From: Natronosalvus caseinilyticus
GTDB lineage: Archaea > Halobacteriota > Halobacteria > Halobacteriales > Natrialbaceae
Assembly: GCF_017357105.1 (NCBI RefSeq)
Contig: NZ_CP071596.1
Location: forward strand, 3,100,001 to 3,164,000
Direction: 5' to 3'
Length of the DNA: 64,000 bases
Shown here: positions 44,440-53,325 of the stretch, in pieces
Numbering within the stretch: position 1 is the stretch's first letter
Layout of the letters: the number at the start of each line of letters is the position of its first letter
The notes under the pieces: model-generated
Databases searched by the model: none
What the model was told of the DNA's origin: nothing
Seen by the model: only the letters and a program-made list of their open reading frames with translations
Translations under genes and position numbers: made by a program

Positions 44440-44841
44440 CTACTCGTCCCCGGACGCCGACTCCTCGAGCCAGCTGCCCGCCCAGCACTCGATCTCGTCG
44501 AAGACCGGTTCGAGCGAGCGCCCCTTCGGCGTCAGGCTGTAGTAGGTCGCGATGGGCGCGTCCTCCTCGATTCGCCGGTCGACGAATCCGAGTTCGCCCA
44601 GGTCCTCGAGCACCCGCGAGAGCGTCCTGGCGTTGGCGTCGGTCGCGCGCTTGAGTTCGTTGAAGCGGTACTCGCCTTTCTGGAGTTCGTGGAGGACGGC
44701 GAGGCGCCACTGGGAGCCGATCTGCTCGATCGAATCGATGACGGGGCACGGAGAGTCCTCGGGTTCGGATCCGACGGCGACGTCGCCGTCAGTGGACGTT
44801 TCAGCGCGCTCGACCTCGAGTGGAGTGGAGTCGGATGACAT
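44440..44841 (-). CDS. HxlR-family transcriptional regulator
   Basis: A 133-residue winged-helix regulator: residues about 35-115 with CPVIDSIEQIGSQWRLAVLH, ELKRATDANARTLSRVLEDL and the wing DAPIATYYSLTPKGRSLEP. The conserved N-terminal Cys is present (SPCPVID). HxlR proteins often respond to aldehydes, redox or flavin-related stress and control a divergent oxidoreductase gene; here the divergent gene is a flavin reductase 239 bp away. The N-terminal 25 residues are acidic linker. Confidence 0.9.
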   Translation of the reverse strand: MSSDSTPLEVERAETSTDGDVAVGSEPEDSPCPVIDSIEQIGSQWRLAVLHELQKGEYRFNELKRATDANARTLSRVLEDLGELGFVDRRIEEDAPIATYYSLTPKGRSLEPVFDEIECWAGSWLEESASGDE

Positions 44842-44922
44842 CGTGGGTATCTGGTTTCCCTTCGTCTCGAAAGCCTATAGCAGTTCGGTATCGTACCAGC
44901 TAACACGAGGCAATCACTAACG

Positions 44923-45084
44923 ATGATAGCCGGCCCAACCGAGCAACCGACGACGGAACTGCACGACGACACCGACAGCTGTACCGACGTAGAAACTACG
45001 ATGGCGTTCTACGAGGGCGTTCCTGGAAGTAGTTTCGTCGATCCGCGAAACGAGAGTCGCAACGGAGGCGCTGATCGGCAGTGA
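44923..45084 (+). CDS. Possible 53-aa upstream ORF overlapping the flavin reductase
   Basis: An ATG-started frame of 53 codons whose TGA overlaps the GTG start of the flavin reductase (GTGA). The product begins MIAGPTEQPTTELHDD and holds VPGSSFVDPRNESRNGGADR. Overlap of this kind is typical of coupled genes, and the frame has acceptable bias, but no homology is recognised and the opposite strand also has a frame. It could be a leader or simple chance. Confidence 0.35.
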   Translation: MIAGPTEQPTTELHDDTDSCTDVETTMAFYEGVPGSSFVDPRNESRNGGADRQ

Positions 45085-45698
45085 TCGATTCCTCGACGTC
45101 AACCGACGCGATCGAAATCGACGTCGACGAACGGGAGGGGTCGCTCTATCGAGTCCTCTCGAGCGCGGTCGTCCCGCGCCCGATTGCGTGGGTCAGCACC
45201 CGAAGCGAAGCCGGCGTCGACAACCTGGCCCCCTACAGCTTTTTCACCGTCGCCTCGGTCGAGCCGCCGGTCGTCGTCTTCGCACCGGTCGACGGTGCGG
45301 ACGGCCCCAAGGACACGCCGCGGAACGTTCGCGACACCGGCGAGTTCGTCGTCAACCTCGTGACCGAGGACCTCGCGGAAGCGATGAACGATACCAGCGC
45401 CACCCTCGAGGCCGGCGACAGCGAGTTCGAGTACGCCGGTCTCGAGCGCGCCGAGTCGACCGTCGTCGCGCCGCCGCGAGTCGCGGATTCGAAGGTTGCC
45501 CTCGAGTGCACCCGGAGAGACCTGCTCGACGTTGGCGGGTCCACGCTCGTCCTCGGCGACGTTCGCTACGTCCACCTCGACGAGGAGGTGACGACCGATG
45601 GGAAAATCGACGTAGCAAACGTCGACGCCGTCGGACGATTGGCCGGGAGCTGGTACGCGAAGACCGACGAACGATTCTCGCTCGAGCGACCACCGTAG
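45081..45698 (+). CDS. Flavin reductase-family protein
   Basis: A 205-residue FMN-binding split-barrel protein: SSAVVPRPIAWVSTRSEAGV, NLAPYSFFTVASVEPPVVVF and KDTPRNVRDTGEFVVNLVTE match the flavin reductase domain that binds FMN at about residues 25-110. The C-terminus ends GRLAGSWYAKTDERFSLERP. Such proteins reduce FMN with NAD(P)H or act on flavin-dependent substrates. A GTG start follows from the family start; the HxlR regulator lies divergent upstream. Confidence 0.9.
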   Translation: MIDSSTSTDAIEIDVDEREGSLYRVLSSAVVPRPIAWVSTRSEAGVDNLAPYSFFTVASVEPPVVVFAPVDGADGPKDTPRNVRDTGEFVVNLVTEDLAEAMNDTSATLEAGDSEFEYAGLERAESTVVAPPRVADSKVALECTRRDLLDVGGSTLVLGDVRYVHLDEEVTTDGKIDVANVDAVGRLAGSWYAKTDERFSLERPP

Positions 45699-45774
45699 CC
45701 GGGTTCGACGGACTCGAGTCTCGCGAACGGTCCCGAAGAAAGTTTTTCGACGTACGGGACAATCCCCGAGTAAC

Positions 45775-46371
45775 GTGAGCGACCGACGAGGTAATGTTTC
45801 TGGCGAGAATTCGGCGACTTCCCACGAGAATTCGGCGGCTTCCGGCGAGAACTCGGCGGCCACCGAGGAGGTGGACTCTCGAACGGAGACGCTGCCGCTC
45901 GTCGACGTCCTCGAGACGGTCGCCGTCGGTGCCGCACCGCCGCTGGCGCTGGGTCTATTCGCGTTACTGGTTCCGTCGGTGCCGGTCGGCCAGGCGGTCT
46001 TCGTCGGCGTACTGTTTGGCGCGATCCTCGCGTCGTACCGACGAGGCATCGAGGCCGTCCGAACCGAAGACGGGGACGGGGACGGGGACGGGATAACGCG
46101 TCGCCTCCGCGTCCCCGACGCCGACAACCCCCGGAGCGACGGATCCGCGCTACTCGCTCGCCTCGACGCCCGAGTCGAGGGCACCGCCCTCGAGTGGGTC
46201 GTCGTCGGGGTCGTGGGAGCGATCGGACTCGTTTCCGCCGTCGAACTCGCCACCGTCGGGTTCGAACGGGTTGCCCCTCGAGTGCTCCTGTACGGCCTGC
46301 TGTGTGGGCCGGCGGCACTGTTCGCGGTCGTGGTGCGATTCGGTGCGCCGGATAGGCAGGGTTCGGGTTAG
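45775..46371 (+). CDS. Membrane protein with N-terminal repeat
   Basis: A 198-residue protein with four hydrophobic segments after residue 45 (ALGLFALLVPSVP, AVFVGVLFGAILA, WVVVGVVGAIGLVSAVEL, VLLYGLLCGPAALFAV). The first 40 residues contain a tandem GENSATS/HENSAAS/GENSAAT repeat encoded by three 21-bp units. A GTG start is used. A haloarchaeal membrane protein of unknown role; the acidic loop GDGDGDGI is typical. Confidence 0.75.
   Translation: MSDRRGNVSGENSATSHENSAASGENSAATEEVDSRTETLPLVDVLETVAVGAAPPLALGLFALLVPSVPVGQAVFVGVLFGAILASYRRGIEAVRTEDGDGDGDGITRRLRVPDADNPRSDGSALLARLDARVEGTALEWVVVGVVGAIGLVSAVELATVGFERVAPRVLLYGLLCGPAALFAVVVRFGAPDRQGSG
45802..45864 (+). repeat. Three 21-bp tandem units inside the membrane protein gene
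   Basis: Three in-frame 21-bp units, each 14-18 identical bases to the consensus GGCGAGAATTCGGCGGCTTCC, encode GENSA(T/A)S-type heptapeptides. They lie inside the coding sequence without breaking the frame. Confidence 0.7.
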
Positions 46372-46515: not shown

Positions 46516-47427
46516 ATGATTGACGTTGCGGACCTTCGCAAGGAATACGGCGGCTTCGTCGCCGTCGACGGCAGTTCGTTCTCGATCGACCGCGGCGAGG
46601 TGTTCGGCGTCGTCGGTCACAACGGCGCCGGCAAGACCACGACGCTGAAGATGCTCGCCGGACTGATCGAACCGACCGACGGGACGGCGGTAGTGGCCGG
46701 ACACCCCGCCGGATCGTCGGCGATGCAGCGTCGTCTGGGCTTCCTCCCCGAGGAGTCGCCGCTGTACGAGGAGATGACCCCCATCTCCTACCTCGAGTTC
46801 TTCGCCGATCTCTACGACGTGCCGGACGACGTGGCGAGCGAGCGCATCACCGCCCTGCTGGACCGCCTCGACCTCGAGCACCGTGATCGAGAACTCGGGA
46901 ACATGTCGAAGGGTATGAAGCGCAAGGTCGCCATCGCTCGCGCGCTAGTCAACGACCCCGACGTGCTCATCTTCGACGAACCCGCCTCGGGGCTCGACCC
47001 GCTGACGACGAACGCCATCCTGGAGTTTACGCGGGAACTCAGCGAGGAGGGGAAGACGGTCATCTTCAGTGCACACAACCTCTTTCACGTCGAGAGCGTC
47101 TGTGATCGCCTCGTCATCATGGCCGAGGGCGAGATCGTCGCTCGCGGAAGCATCGAGGTCATCCGCTCGACCTACGGCGGGACGAGCTACCACGTCTTCG
47201 TCTCCACCGAGGGGGACGACGTGGTGGGAAGCGACGCGATCGCCGCCCCGGTAGCCGAGATCGGTCGCGAGAACGGCGATCTTCGATACGTGGTTCGAGA
47301 CCTCGAGGGCGTCGACGCCGTCCGCGACGCCGTGGAGGCGGCCGGCGGCTCCGTCACCGACATCCAGACGAAGACGCCGAGCCTCGAGGAGATCTTCCTC
47401 GAGGTGGCCGGGGAGGCGGCCGCGTGA
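46516..47427 (+). CDS. ABC transporter ATP-binding protein
   Basis: A 303-residue ABC ATPase of NatA/ABC-2 type: Walker A GHNGAGKTT near residue 34, Q-loop region, signature NMSKGMKRKVAIARAL (variant of LSGGQ, as in CcmA/NatA ATPases) near 135, Walker B VLIFDEPASGLDP near 152, and H-loop FSAHNLFHVES. A C-terminal regulatory portion after about 215 ends in EEIFLEVAGEAAA. It heads the operon; its stop overlaps the next start in GTGA. Confidence 0.95.
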   Translation: MIDVADLRKEYGGFVAVDGSSFSIDRGEVFGVVGHNGAGKTTTLKMLAGLIEPTDGTAVVAGHPAGSSAMQRRLGFLPEESPLYEEMTPISYLEFFADLYDVPDDVASERITALLDRLDLEHRDRELGNMSKGMKRKVAIARALVNDPDVLIFDEPASGLDPLTTNAILEFTRELSEEGKTVIFSAHNLFHVESVCDRLVIMAEGEIVARGSIEVIRSTYGGTSYHVFVSTEGDDVVGSDAIAAPVAEIGRENGDLRYVVRDLEGVDAVRDAVEAAGGSVTDIQTKTPSLEEIFLEVAGEAAA

Positions 47428-49310
47428 CGGCTGGTCCGGCGTCGAGCGACCCTCGAAGCCAGCGCCAGGACGCGAACGACAGCCCGTCGAGAGCGGACGC
47501 CGTTCGCGGCTTCGTCCGCCGAACGGCCCGAATCGCGCGCTGGGAAGTCTCCCGGAGCGCCGGGACTGTCGACCGAAAGACGGTCCTGATCGTCCTCGCG
47601 CTCGCGCTCGTCGTCGGTGCGGTGGGTGTCGCGACCCTCGACGAGGGCGTGGGTCTCGAGGATGGCCTCTACACGGTCTCGGTCGACGAGGAGAGCCCCT
47701 ATCACGCGGTCGCCGTCGAGAACCCGACGTTCACGGCCGTCGAACCGGGTACCGACGCCGACGTGCGGGTGTACCGCGGCGACGTGATCGATCCCGACAG
47801 GGCACAGACCTCGAAGGAGAAGGCCGCCTACGCCGCGTTCGCCGACGCCGTCGAGGCGTACAACGAGGAGCGGATGTACGCGGAGGACGACCTGAGCGCC
47901 GCGTTCCCCGTCTCCGTGACGCTGACCTACCAGCAGCGATCCAGCCCCGATTCGGCGAGCGGAGGGAGCGACTCGAGTGACGGCGGATCGACCGGATCCG
48001 GCGCCGATTTGACAGGAGGTCCGGATGGCGACGGGTCGACTGGCGATGGCGACGGCTCGACGGACGGTGGCGGCGCTCCCACGGACTCGAGCGACGGATC
48101 TGGCTCGGGTATCAGCGTGCCGGAGTTCGGCGGCGGCTCGATCGAGGACTCGAGCCAGCCCCAGACCCCGGGCTCGATCACGCCGCCGTTTCCCTTCAGG
48201 TCGCTCGTACTCGCGTTCCTGTTCGTCGTCCCGATGAACGTCGTGATCCAGTCCTACGGGAGCACGATCATGGACGAGCGGATCAAGCGCCGCGGCGAGT
48301 TGCTGCTGGTCTCGCCCGCCTCGCGGTACGAGATCGTCGCCGGAAAGACACTCCCGTACCTGCTGGGACTCCTGGGAATCGTCGTCGCCATCGCGTACGG
48401 GATCGAGGGGAGCTGGCTGTCGGTCGCCGCCGTCGTTCCCATCGCGCTGGTCTTTCTCGCGGCCACGTTCGTCGGGGCGATGTTCGCCCGCTCGTTCAAG
48501 GAACTCACGTTCGTCACGGTGACGGTTTCGGTGGTGCTGACGACCTACACGTTCGTACCGGCAATCTTCACGAACGTCACGCCGATCTCGCTCATCTCGC
48601 CGCTGACGCTCGTCGTCCTCGACCTCCAGGGCGAGAGCGTTCGCCTCGGGGAGTACCTCTTCTCGACGGCGCCGCTATCTCTCGGCGCGCTCGTCCTGTT
48701 CGGGCTCGGCCTCGGGAGCTACCGCGAGGAGGACATGTTCACCCAGAAGCCGATCCCGTCGAAGGCGCTCGACGCCGTCGCCGCCCACGTCCGCGGGTAC
48801 GCCAGCGTGCTCGCGATGCCGGTCGTCTTCATCCCGTTCGTCTTCGCCGGCCAGTTGCTCACCGTCGCGCTCGTCTTCGCGCTCCCGCAGACGGTGTCGC
48901 TCCCGATCGTCTTCGTCGTCGCCGCGCTCCTCGAGGAACTCGCGAAGAGCCTCCACGTCTACGCGGGCTACGCCCACTCGCGGTTCGAATCGTCCGTCCG
49001 AACGGCGGTCGTCCTCGGCGCGCTCTCGGGGCTCGGCTTCTTCCTGGGCGAGAAACTCACCCACGCCGTCCAGTTCGTCGGGCTTCCCGACCTGCTCGAG
49101 GGGCAGGCCGCGTTCGGTCCCTCGCTGTCCGGCGCCCCCGTTGCCGTGGTAGTTGCCGTCTTCCTCGCACCGCTGGCGTTGCACGCCGTGACGGCGATCA
49201 TCGGGGCACTCGGCGCCAGTCGAGGACGGACCGCGTACGCACTCGGTCTCACGGCCGCGACGCTCGTTCACGCGGTCTACAACCTCGGGGTGATCGCGCT
49301 TGTCGCGTGA
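47424..49310 (+). CDS. ABC-2 permease fused to PrsW-like intramembrane protease
   Basis: A 628-residue fusion. Residues about 30-440 form an ABC-2 permease: one N-terminal TM helix (about 52-72), a large extracytoplasmic loop with an acidic, Ser/Gly-rich low-complexity section (about 170-250), then several TM helices beginning PFRSLVLAFLFVVPMNVVIQ and MDERIKRRGELLLVSPASRYEIVAG. Residues about 460-628 form a PrsW/CAAX-protease-like unit with LLEELAKSLHVYAGYAHSRF, ALHAVTAIIGALGASRG and the C-terminal HAVYNLGVIALVA, giving the Glu-Glu and His motifs of PrsW-type metallo-proteases. GTG or ATG start overlaps the ATPase; it ends in an overlap with the next permease. It may release or process a signal or substrate while exporting it. 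Confidence 0.85.
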   Translation: MTAGPASSDPRSQRQDANDSPSRADAVRGFVRRTARIARWEVSRSAGTVDRKTVLIVLALALVVGAVGVATLDEGVGLEDGLYTVSVDEESPYHAVAVENPTFTAVEPGTDADVRVYRGDVIDPDRAQTSKEKAAYAAFADAVEAYNEERMYAEDDLSAAFPVSVTLTYQQRSSPDSASGGSDSSDGGSTGSGADLTGGPDGDGSTGDGDGSTDGGGAPTDSSDGSGSGISVPEFGGGSIEDSSQPQTPGSITPPFPFRSLVLAFLFVVPMNVVIQSYGSTIMDERIKRRGELLLVSPASRYEIVAGKTLPYLLGLLGIVVAIAYGIEGSWLSVAAVVPIALVFLAATFVGAMFARSFKELTFVTVTVSVVLTTYTFVPAIFTNVTPISLISPLTLVVLDLQGESVRLGEYLFSTAPLSLGALVLFGLGLGSYREEDMFTQKPIPSKALDAVAAHVRGYASVLAMPVVFIPFVFAGQLLTVALVFALPQTVSLPIVFVVAALLEELAKSLHVYAGYAHSRFESSVRTAVVLGALSGLGFFLGEKLTHAVQFVGLPDLLEGQAAFGPSLSGAPVAVVVAVFLAPLALHAVTAIIGALGASRGRTAYALGLTAATLVHAVYNLGVIALVA

Positions 49311-50385
49311 GCCACGAGCGGACGAGGATGACTCTACCCTGCACGCTCGACTGGCCATCGTCCGCCGCGAGTGGCGCTCCCTGCGCTCGGAGAAGACCAT
49401 CGTGCTCGCGCTGGCGATCCAGCTGGTCATCGCCGGCTTCTCGGGCTTCCTCGTCGTCGGCCTCGTCTCGCTGTACGACCCCGGCGCGGTCGAGGGCCAG
49501 GAGATGACCGTCGCGCTCACCGGTGACGACAGGGACGCCTTGCTCGAAGCCGTCCACCATCGAGAGGCCATCGAACCGCGGCTCTACGACGACCGCGGAG
49601 CCGCCTACGCGGACTTCGATCGGCGAGCCGTCGCCGCCGTCGTCGAGACCAACCGCCTCGAAAACGGCCGGCTCTCGATCGTGGTCACGGCACCCGACGA
49701 GGGGATCGGGACGACGCTGTTGATCTCGGAACTCCAGGAGACGTTCCGCACGGTGGAGTTCGAGGAACGGCAGGCGAACGCCGACCGACTCGAGTCGCCG
49801 CCCCTGTCCGTGCCCGAGACGAGCGCGACCCCGTACTTCGGGTTCACGTATACCATCCTGGTGCCGCTCCTGTTGTTCCTGCCGGTGTTCATCAGCGGCT
49901 CGATCGCCGTCGACTCGCTGATCGAGGAGCGCCAGCGCGGCACGTTAGAGTTGCTCCGGGTGGCGCCGCTGTCGTTCCCGGACGTGGTCGACGCGAAACT
50001 CGTCGCGACGGCCAGCCTGGCCCCGCTACAGGGACTCGCCTGGCTCCTCTTGCTCGCGTTCAACGGGACGGCGATCGCCAACCCGGCGGCCCTGGTGATC
50101 TTCGTCGCCGCGCTGGCGTTGCTCATCGTCGCACTCGGAATGGGCGTGGCGCTGTACGCCCCGGATCGACGCCAGGCGCAGTTGCTCTACTCGGCGGGCA
50201 TCGTCGGCCTGCTGGTCGTCACGTCTCTGCTGCCGGAACACCCCGCGAACACGGTCGCGAAACTGGCCATCGGAAGCGAGACGCCGACGACCTGGCTCCT
50301 GTTCGCCGGCTACGTCGTGGCCGGTCTCGGGGCGTACCTGCTGCTTCAGTGGTGGCTCGAGCGGGTCGATCAGGCGGCTCTGTAA
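49300..50385 (+). CDS. ABC-2 type permease
   Basis: A 361-residue permease with an N-terminal TM helix (about 35-60, IVLALAIQLVIAGFSGFLVV), a long outside loop (about 60-175) and five to six C-terminal TM helices from about 185 (FGFTYTILVPLLLFLPVFISGS) with the typical DSLIEERQRGTLELLRVAPLS coupling loop. A TTG start overlaps the fused permease's end by 11 bases. The two permeases and the ATPase would make one exporter. Confidence 0.88.
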   Translation: MSREPRADEDDSTLHARLAIVRREWRSLRSEKTIVLALAIQLVIAGFSGFLVVGLVSLYDPGAVEGQEMTVALTGDDRDALLEAVHHREAIEPRLYDDRGAAYADFDRRAVAAVVETNRLENGRLSIVVTAPDEGIGTTLLISELQETFRTVEFEERQANADRLESPPLSVPETSATPYFGFTYTILVPLLLFLPVFISGSIAVDSLIEERQRGTLELLRVAPLSFPDVVDAKLVATASLAPLQGLAWLLLLAFNGTAIANPAALVIFVAALALLIVALGMGVALYAPDRRQAQLLYSAGIVGLLVVTSLLPEHPANTVAKLAIGSETPTTWLLFAGYVVAGLGAYLLLQWWLERVDQAAL

Positions 50386-50464
50386 ATAGGGCCGGGATGC
50401 GGTCGGCACGTCCGCTGACCCCTTCCCACCGCCGCGACCCGAGTAGTTATACGCCACCCTGCGA

Positions 50465-52963
50465 ATGTCACCGGCCGTGAACGAAGGAATGACGCGACGG
50501 GGCGCGCTCGCCGCGGCCGTCCTCGCGGGCGTCGCCGGCCTCTCGCTCTCGTCCGCGAGCGACCTCCTCGAGCAGTTCGCGCCGCTCTCGGGCGATGCGT
50601 GGAACGCCGCCGACCGGGAACGTCCGGAACGCGTCGAGAGCCCCTACGGGGACGCGACCGTTCGAATCGACGACGAGGGCGTCCCCCACGTCGAGGCGGA
50701 CGACGAGCGGGCGGCGTACTTCGCCATAGGCCACCTCCATGGGTTCGACCGCGGCTTCCAGCTCGACCTCCAGCGTCGCCAGATGCGGGGCGAACTGTCG
50801 TCCGTCGTCGGCGAGGCCACCCTCGAGAGCGACGAGTTTCACGTCCGGATGGACTTCGCCGGGGCCGCCGAGGCGACCTGGAACGCCCTCGAGGAGACCC
50901 ACGCCGGGTCGCTCGTCGAGGCCTACGCCGACGGCGTGAACGCGGCGTTCGAGGGCACGACGTTCCCCCTCGAGTTCGAACTGCTCGAGTTCGAGCCGGA
51001 CCCGTGGGTGCCCGCCGACACGCTCTTGATGGAGAAACAGATCGCCTGGACGCTCACGGGGAACTTCAGTGCCCTTCGACGCCAGGTGCTCGAGGATCGG
51101 CTCGAGCCGGCGATTCTCGAGGCGCTGTTCCCCGAACGGATGGACCACGACACGCCGGTGCTGCGAACGGACCCCGAGCACGTCGACGGCCTCGGTGAAT
51201 TGCGTGGCGTTCGAATCGGCGAAAGTGGCGCGAGCGAAGGAAGCGACGAAACGGGGACAGAGAGTACAGCGGACGCCCACGACTCGAGTACCCCCTCCCT
51301 GGCGACGTGGCTTTCGCGGTTCGAATCGCCGCCCGGCGTCGGCTCGAACAGCTGGGTGGTCTCGGGCGAGCACACCGAGAGCGGGACCCCCATCGTCGCG
51401 AACGACCCGCACCTCCAGTTGATGACGCCGCCGCTATGGTACGAACAGCACGTCGAGACAGCCGAGACCTCGGTTCGCGGCGTGACGTTCCCGGGCGTCC
51501 CTTTCGTCATCATCGGCGCCAACGAGGCCGCCGGCTGGGGCTTCACGAACGTCGGCGCGGACGTCCTCGACTGTTACACCTACCAGATCGACGACGAGAA
51601 CGAGCGCTATCGGTATCGGAGCGAGTGGCGCGAGTTCGAGACCGAGGAACGCGAGATCGCCGTCTCGGGTGGCGAAAACCGAACGATCACCGCCAGGAAG
51701 ACCGTCCACGGCCCCCTGCTCGAGCGTGAGGGCGAGACGGTCGGCGTCGCCTGGACGGGACTCAGCGCGACCCGGACGACCGAGGCCGTCTACGACCTGA
51801 CGGTCAGCGAGGGCGTCGACGACGCACTCGAGGCCGCCCGGCGATTCGACGTGCCGACTCAGAACCTCGTGTACGCGGACGCGAACGGACGAACGCTGTA
51901 CGTCGCCGCCGGTCAGTTCCCGATTCGCCGGGATGGCGACGACTCGAGCGGCGAACCGATCGCAGGAAATCGCGTCTTCGACGGTTCTGCGGGCGAAGGC
52001 GAGTGGGAAGGATACGAGCCCTACGGCGTCTCCGATTGGGAGGGCGATGGATTCGTCCCCTTCGAGGAACAGCCCGCGGCGATCGATCCCGACCTGCTGG
52101 CGACGGCGAACCAGCGGACTGCAGACGACCCCGAGCACTACGTCGGTACCGCCTTCGCGATGCCCTATCGTGGTCGACGGATCTACGACGAGCTCGATGC
52201 CGCGGCCGGTGAGGAACGCGGAACGGACCTCGAGTTTCACCGAACCCTCCAGACCGACCGTCGCGACGAGCGCGCTGTCGACACGGTTCCCGACCTGCTC
52301 GAGGCCGGAACCGCGGCACTCGAGGACGGGACGGTCGACGATCCCGACCAATTCGAGGACGCCATCGATACGCTCGAGGACTGGGGTCCGGAGTACGAGA
52401 TGGTGCGCGACTCCCGCGGGGCTCTGCTGTTCGCCCGCTGGTTCGAACACCTCCGAGCGGGTGTCCTCGAGCCGGTCTTCGACCCCGCCGATCTCGGTTC
52501 CGAGTACTACTCGAACGACTGGATCGTCGCGACCCTGCCCGCCGAGAACCCGGTCTTCGAGGACCGCTCACGGGACTCGATTCTCGTCGAAGCGCTCGAG
52601 ACGACCCTCGTGGAACTCGAGGATGAGGGGTGGGACACCTACGGCGACTGGAATACTACTGAGCCCGTCGCGCACCCCTTCGGCAGCGAGGCGCCGTTTC
52701 TCAGTTACGACGAGCGACCGACCGACGGGTCGCGGGCGACGGTCGACAACTACCGCGTCGAGAGCGCCGTCGGCGCCAGCTGGCGGATGGTTGTCGAACC
52801 CGGTGGCGAAGCCTGGGCGATTCTCCCCGGCGGGAACTCGGGTGACTACTTCTCGCCTCACTACGACGACCAGTTCGAGCGGTGGGCCGACGGCGAGTAC
52901 AAGTCGATGGACCTCGAGGCGAGCGGCGAGACGGCGACGCGGTTCGAGGGGGTGGAGCGATGA
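50465..52963 (+). CDS. Penicillin acylase-family hydrolase
   Basis: An 832-residue Ntn hydrolase precursor. The N-terminus TRRGALAAAVLAGVAGLSLSSA is a Tat-like or signal anchor. The alpha part (about 50-290) contains GIPHVEA-like VPHVEADDERAAYFAIGHLHGFDRGFQLD; the autocatalytic nucleophile is Ser294 in GVGSNSWVVSG at the start of the beta chain, which continues with NDPHLQLMTPPLWYEQHVE and ANEAAGWGFTNVGADV. The family cleaves amide bonds of penicillins or acyl-homoserine lactones. The substrate here is unknown. It follows the ABC exporter genes with a 79-bp gap and precedes a small membrane protein that overlaps it (ATGA). Confidence 0.92.
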   Translation: MSPAVNEGMTRRGALAAAVLAGVAGLSLSSASDLLEQFAPLSGDAWNAADRERPERVESPYGDATVRIDDEGVPHVEADDERAAYFAIGHLHGFDRGFQLDLQRRQMRGELSSVVGEATLESDEFHVRMDFAGAAEATWNALEETHAGSLVEAYADGVNAAFEGTTFPLEFELLEFEPDPWVPADTLLMEKQIAWTLTGNFSALRRQVLEDRLEPAILEALFPERMDHDTPVLRTDPEHVDGLGELRGVRIGESGASEGSDETGTESTADAHDSSTPSLATWLSRFESPPGVGSNSWVVSGEHTESGTPIVANDPHLQLMTPPLWYEQHVETAETSVRGVTFPGVPFVIIGANEAAGWGFTNVGADVLDCYTYQIDDENERYRYRSEWREFETEEREIAVSGGENRTITARKTVHGPLLEREGETVGVAWTGLSATRTTEAVYDLTVSEGVDDALEAARRFDVPTQNLVYADANGRTLYVAAGQFPIRRDGDDSSGEPIAGNRVFDGSAGEGEWEGYEPYGVSDWEGDGFVPFEEQPAAIDPDLLATANQRTADDPEHYVGTAFAMPYRGRRIYDELDAAAGEERGTDLEFHRTLQTDRRDERAVDTVPDLLEAGTAALEDGTVDDPDQFEDAIDTLEDWGPEYEMVRDSRGALLFARWFEHLRAGVLEPVFDPADLGSEYYSNDWIVATLPAENPVFEDRSRDSILVEALETTLVELEDEGWDTYGDWNTTEPVAHPFGSEAPFLSYDERPTDGSRATVDNYRVESAVGASWRMVVEPGGEAWAILPGGNSGDYFSPHYDDQFERWADGEYKSMDLEASGETATRFEGVER

Positions 52964-53325
52964 CGGCTTCGGAGAATAGAGACGAGACGGCGACGACGGG
53001 ACGAACGACGCTGGCTCGAGTTCGAACCGAGCGCCTGCCCCACCTCCTCGCGCTGTTCGTCGCCGTCGGCCTCGGCCTCGCCCTCTCGTGGCTCCACTGG
53101 GCCGGCCTCGTCGTCGGGGGCGTTCTGGTTGGTCTCGTCGCCCGCAGCCTGCTGAAGGCGCTCGGCTACGGGCTCGGATTCGGCCTCGTCGTGCTCGTCG
53201 TCTTCGCGTTCGTGCTCGGTGGTGGTCGAGGTCCGGCGCTCGAGATGGCACCCGCTATCTACCTCACTGTCGGTGCTGCGCTCGGACTCCCCATACTTGG
53301 GTCGCTGGCTCGCGGCGTCGTCTGA
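52960..53325 (+). CDS. Small membrane protein in the exporter-acylase operon
   Basis: A 121-residue protein with three to four hydrophobic segments (HLLALFVAVGLGLALSWLHW, AGLVVGGVLVGLVARSLLKA, GLVVLVVFAFVLG, and a C-terminal PAIYLTVGAALGLPILGS) and a Ser/Thr-rich polar N-terminus. The start overlaps the acylase stop in ATGA, so it is coupled to it. No domain is recognised; an accessory role for the acylase or exporter is inference. Confidence 0.8.
   Translation: MTASENRDETATTGRTTLARVRTERLPHLLALFVAVGLGLALSWLHWAGLVVGGVLVGLVARSLLKALGYGLGFGLVVLVVFAFVLGGGRGPALEMAPAIYLTVGAALGLPILGSLARGVV

Follow-up and report, generated by a model that had tools for sequence, protein, structure and literature searches.

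A PrsW-type protease fused to an ABC-2 permease in a haloarchaeal exporter, and an adjoining acylase pair that is probably a separate module

Five genes on the forward strand, at 46516-53325 of the window (the whole stretch of 64,000 nucleotides analysed here, from the 4.2 Mb haloarchaeal genome of Natronosalvus caseinilyticus), very probably represent two independent modules placed side by side: an exporter triple, and an acylase together with a small membrane protein. The adjacency of exporter and acylase is accordingly read as positional and not functional. This reading is based on chance-level co-occurrence of the two, on their adjacency in a minority of genomes, on the variants of one chromosomal slot, on the acylase tree, on a promoter-like box of the acylase's own, and on exporter loci elsewhere in the phylum that are free of an acylase. 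The joint interpretation of exporter and acylase, put forward in an earlier note, finds no support here, and the interest lies in a family of exporter-fused proteases.

Gene layout and predicted transcription units

The first gene (46516..47427) encodes an ATPase of the DrrA/NatA type, recognized by Pfam ABC_tran at 105.8 bits and carrying a DrrA1-3_C domain (36 bits). It overlaps by 4 bp the gene of the fusion protein (47424..49310), in which an ABC-2 permease, with a weak ABC2_membrane_3 match, is followed by a C-terminal PrsW-type intramembrane protease at residues ~455-628. The fusion gene in turn overlaps by 11 bp that of permease 2 (49300..50385), a second ABC-2 permease with a TTG start and an ABC2_membrane_3 score of 56.8 bits. 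Downstream lies the gene of a Tat-exported Ntn hydrolase of the penicillin-amidase family (50477..52963, with an alternative start at ATG 50465; PF01804, 617 bits), overlapped by 4 bp by the gene of a small helical membrane protein (52960..53325). Among the genomes scanned, the closest named relative was Natronosalvus hydrolyticus, whose fusion protein is 70% identical.

The five genes and the overlapping starts described in the earlier note were borne out by the coordinates of the gene calls. Nearly the whole ATPase gene (46516-47427) falls outside the interval assigned to them, 47424-53325. The overlaps agree with the described five-gene run, but the run is broken once, where 79 nt separate the end of permease 2 from the acylase gene. 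This gap holds a predicted TATA-like box, AGTTAT, at 50446..50451 on the forward strand upstream of the acylase GTG at 50477.

TATA-like boxes were scored at 24-32 nt upstream of in-frame starts, with 200 shuffles as the control. A box was found before 26 of 47 acylase genes, against a shuffled mean of 3.4 and a maximum of 8, and before 7 of the 9 linked acylase genes. The ATPase genes gave 10 of 52 (shuffled mean 3.1, maximum 9), while the same scan found none before the fusion, permease-2 or small-protein genes. Because a box precedes the acylase and none precedes the fusion, permease 2 or the small protein, this motif count suggests two transcription units, one of the ATPase, fusion and permease 2, and the other of the acylase and small protein. 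The predicted box at 50446-50451 would drive a leaderless acylase transcript from GTG 50477. This GTG is considered the better acylase start, since a close relative (G045) keeps both the box and the GTG and lacks a counterpart of ATG 50465.

Linkage of exporter and acylase across genomes

When 242 haloarchaeal genomes, all of one class, were each searched with four of the five proteins, both exporter and acylase turned up in 83 genomes, where independent occurrence would give 84.6 (Fisher p = 0.66, in a test that ignores phylogeny). Adjacency, scored by script as a distance within ~3 kb, was observed in 12 of the 72 genomes that have both and usable coordinates, and not in the other 60; all 12 belong to the window's own family. 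One more genome (G099) has the two 7.7 kb apart, and in another nine genomes with both they are unlinked. The exporter-acylase arrangement was seen in 10 of 80 named haloarchaeal loci. Outside haloarchaea, neither an acylase nor a small-protein homologue was found near the exporter in 20 regions from across the phylum. In 11 of the 12 linked genomes the spacer between exporter and acylase measures ~55-200 nt, and the two lie on a common strand. Short spacers and a common strand would allow read-through transcription, and some co-regulation of exporter and acylase may exist, the arrangement having persisted in about a dozen genomes.

The history of the locus was followed by a comparison of regions from 60 places. 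In the window's family, one slot of variable content is flanked by an HxlR-type regulator on one side and, on the other, by an aldo/keto reductase that is often followed by TenA. This slot contains the exporter with the acylase pair (L127-L131), the exporter without the acylase (L118-L123), or the acylase pair without the exporter (L132, L134, L135 and L137). The acylase pair's place in this family is downstream of the exporter, at a position where gene content varies. In other families the aldo/keto reductase can directly follow the exporter (L081, L084, L085), with the acylase pair elsewhere. The acylase tree mixes linked and exporter-less genomes: the linked G116 is placed with the exporter-less G166, and the linked G085 and G052 group with the exporter-less G062 and G105. 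From this interleaving it follows that the exporter was repeatedly lost or gained beside a retained acylase. In this slot, a Natrinema-type genome has a formate/nitrite-transporter-like gene (L118:7453-9324) between the exporter and the aldo/keto reductase, replacing the acylase pair; its product, as read from the translation, carries apparent C-terminal universal-stress-type repeats.

The earlier note had expected the five genes to co-occur and to remain linked in relatives, as parts of an operon that may produce, process and export a signal of acylated or peptide type, or may instead inactivate a signal from outside. Such an operon is favored by the common strand, the overlaps and the short gaps, and by the persistence of the arrangement in the 12 related genomes and the ten named loci. 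However, a conserved five-gene unit failed the test of co-occurrence among the 242 genomes and that of linkage in the locus comparison: co-occurrence does not exceed chance, exporter and acylase were lost separately within the family, the acylase has a promoter-like box of its own, and the exporter is conserved across the wider phylum with no acylase nearby. Unlinked genes in relatives had been named in the note itself as evidence that would speak against it. With linkage missing and co-occurrence at chance level, a single signal operon was ruled out as the working explanation and is regarded as highly improbable; the two-module reading is retained.

The acylase and its small partner

The acylase is a peptidase S45 / Ntn family enzyme, in which, with residues numbered from ATG 50465, G293, the nucleophile S294, H316 (beta23) and N549 are present in 61 of 61 sequences, as in Ntn hydrolases of family S45. 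A twin arginine, the Tat signal, occurs in 59 of the 61. Both the autocatalytic serine context and the secreted-type Ntn hydrolase proposed from the window hold up, the former being invariant in relatives and the latter having an intact active site and a Tat signal. Because the Tat motif is conserved, the exporter is not needed as the acylase's secretion route, and this candidate role was discarded. Within the penicillin amidase family (PF01804/S45), the acylase has in common with D-succinylase (7eby, its closest solved structure), cephalosporin acylase and PvdQ the Ntn fold family, a Ser after Gly, His beta23 and an oxyanion Asn; it differs from these relatives in being archaeal and Tat-exported and in having, in nearly every case, a small membrane protein as its partner. 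No direct study of a haloarchaeal penicillin acylase was found in the literature.

A quorum-quenching activity on acyl-homoserine lactones seems rather unlikely for this enzyme. In PvdQ, roles were assigned to His beta23 and Val beta70 and to the pocket residues Phe beta24 and Trp beta162/187 (PMC5474475). His beta23 and a residue beta70 that is mostly Val (47 of 61 acylases) match PvdQ, and the Tat signal points to an extracellular location. Against this, beta24 is Leu where PvdQ has Phe, and beta162/187 of the window's protein are Leu/Val where PvdQ has Trp, in a gap-free numbering that is approximate that far along the chain; the PvdQ equivalog score is 46 bits against a cut-off of 950, and the nearest solved structure is D-succinylase. 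A PvdQ-type acylase was thereby rejected on the equivalog score and the acyl-pocket residues, although the oxyanion-type residues do agree. Judged from its residues, the acylase is likely to be a functional hydrolase of N-acyl amides that works outside the cell. Following a predicted self-cleavage in front of Ser294, the Tat-exported enzyme would act on external N-acyl amides, and the small protein would serve as its putative anchor or helper.

The link of the acylase to the small protein, not singled out in the earlier note, is strongly supported: the small protein was found in 113 of 115 acylase genomes, and in 112 of the 115 it is encoded by the next gene downstream on the same strand. It is membrane-spanning by sequence and helical in an AlphaFold model (pLDDT 91). 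A His-Trp pair is conserved in it, and its N-terminal segment is basic; no Pfam family scored over its cut-off and no PDB fold matched. The small protein probably anchors or assists the acylase.

The exporter and its fused protease

Of the 80 named haloarchaeal loci, 79 have the complete triple of ATPase, fusion and permease 2. The ATPase gene lies upstream of the fusion and co-directional with it in 79 of the 80, and permease 2 directly follows the fusion in 79 of the 80 and in 20 of 20 loci elsewhere in the phylum. A profile search of 247 genomes of the phylum revealed full-length fusions in many genomes outside haloarchaea, which are probably mostly methanogens, and in nearly all of 20 regions outside haloarchaea an ATPase gene adjoins the fusion and permease 2. 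Relatives were also found in Haloferax. With regard to orientation, the ATPase is mostly divergent from the fusion/permease-2 pair outside haloarchaea (L242-L261), and the three genes are co-directional in haloarchaea.

An ATPase and two permeases encoded together, as here, are characteristic of an ABC-2 (type V) exporter; the fold assignment comes from the fused permease, and permease 2 was assigned by Pfam. In the AlphaFold model, the permease half of the fusion adopts an ABCA/ABCG/NosY fold (Z 14-16). The likeness to the type V transporters NosFY, ABCA and ABCG lies in this fold, but no fused protease is reported in the matched entries, unlike in the fusion here. A sequence search of the fusion profile against solved structures gave no match, and no direct study of an ABC-2/PrsW fusion was found in the literature. 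The triple is thus read as an ATP-driven, ABCA/ABCG-like exporter of one ATPase and two permeases, one of which ends in a PrsW/CPBP-type intramembrane protease domain. It would flip or extrude hydrophobic or peptide material, and where transport takes place the protease would cut either this material or a partner in the membrane.

Upstream of the exporter, an HxlR-type regulator and a flavin-reductase gene occur at 44440-46371 of the window, and both recur beside the exporter elsewhere in haloarchaea (in 38 and 18 of the 80 named loci, respectively); at some loci a DoxX-like gene for a small membrane protein accompanies them. Also encoded upstream of the ATPase is a 198-residue predicted membrane protein (45775-46371) that matched nothing in Pfam or NCBIfam and was not found next to the exporter at any other locus in the comparison.

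The protease fused to the ABC-2 permease, proposed earlier from its EE and His motifs, was upheld. The window's fusion scores 27.1 bits with Pfam PrsW, over the cut-off of 23.5. It carries the PrsW-type motifs EExxK, GFFxxE, H and HxxYN. The residues E504, E505, K508, E543, H587 and H616 are present in 75 of 75 sequences, and these six and K544 are the positions of the protease half that never vary; over this half, distant fusions are only ~31% identical to the window's protein. The AlphaFold model of the fusion has a pLDDT of 78, exceeding 90 over most protease helices, and places the motifs in consecutive helices. By hhalign, the protease half aligns with 20 stand-alone haloarchaeal PrsW proteins at a probability of 88.6% (E 2.6e-6), with all motif groups aligned, while the permease half gave no match to stand-alone PrsW in profile-profile comparison. 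Foldseek and VIA-align with the whole fusion as the query returned permease-half matches only, with Rce1 and APH-1 absent among them, an outcome that has no bearing on the protease assignment because the permease half filled the results. A common ancestry is accepted for PrsW, CPBP/Rce1 and APH-1 (PMC6588880).

Scanned as whole proteins, 1 of 36 aligned haloarchaeal fusions gave a Pfam PrsW match; of 9 distant fusions, none did. Run over whole genomes, the same model did reach the fused domain, with scores of 25-33 bits in several close relatives. The fusion resembles the PrsW family (PF13367; Bacillus subtilis PrsW; Haloferax volcanii HVO_0408) in the four motif groups that align with haloarchaeal stand-alone PrsW, but differs in being fused to an ABC-2 permease, divergent, and under Pfam detection in 35 of the 36 aligned members. 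Permease/CPBP fusions are already known in NCBIfam as NF041647 (ABC transporter permease subunit/CPBP intramembrane protease), which likewise combines an ABC-2 permease with a protease of the Rce1/CPBP/PrsW superfamily. Membership was rejected, as the fusion here, with its PrsW-type motifs, is unmatched by that model, and permease 2 is matched weakly (26 bits against a cut-off of 435); by these model scores the exporter fusion falls outside it. A stand-alone PrsW gene is also found in the same genome outside the window (G000:C1:290885-291466, L150); its Pfam match is strong (145.9 bits), in contrast to the weak one of the fused domain.

For the role of the protease, cargo processing and regulation appear about equally likely. 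In bacterial ribosomal-peptide clusters, ABC exporters act alongside CPBP proteases. The exporter might possibly be a transporter that matures peptides or lipopeptides, its fused protease removing a leader or membrane anchor during export. The strictly conserved active site and a permease fold common to lipid and drug exporters are consistent with this, as is the proposal that PrsW, a membrane protease, acts in export-coupled processing of bacterial toxins (PMC3482391); but no conserved precursor or biosynthetic gene was found beside the exporter among ORFs of at least 70 residues in 20 haloarchaeal loci. It is just as conceivable, at the same tentative level, that the protease domain does not process cargo but controls the exporter or disposes of membrane proteins that have failed. 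The missing cargo candidate favors this, together with the stress-signalling function of stand-alone PrsW in Bacillus (PMC9263693), whereas it is weakened by the finding that most lineages have no conserved gene for a regulator next to the triple.

Still more doubtfully, the triple may represent an ancient archaeal family of self-processing exporters, in haloarchaea and other classes of the phylum (probably methanogens), whose built-in PrsW-type protease cuts peptide or lipopeptide cargo during export. If true, such exporters would be an archaeal counterpart of the bacterial leader-cutting exporters, largely overlooked because their protease domain lies under Pfam detection. Under the two-module reading, the analysis separates two units that one genome makes appear as one. 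The exporter-fused intramembrane protease is widely conserved, with an active site invariant across the phylum, and is mostly missed by family databases; its Haloferax relatives, and probably methanogen ones too, should permit direct genetic tests. The acylase/membrane-protein pair, carried by about half of the haloarchaeal genomes in the survey, is another small unit that lends itself to testing.
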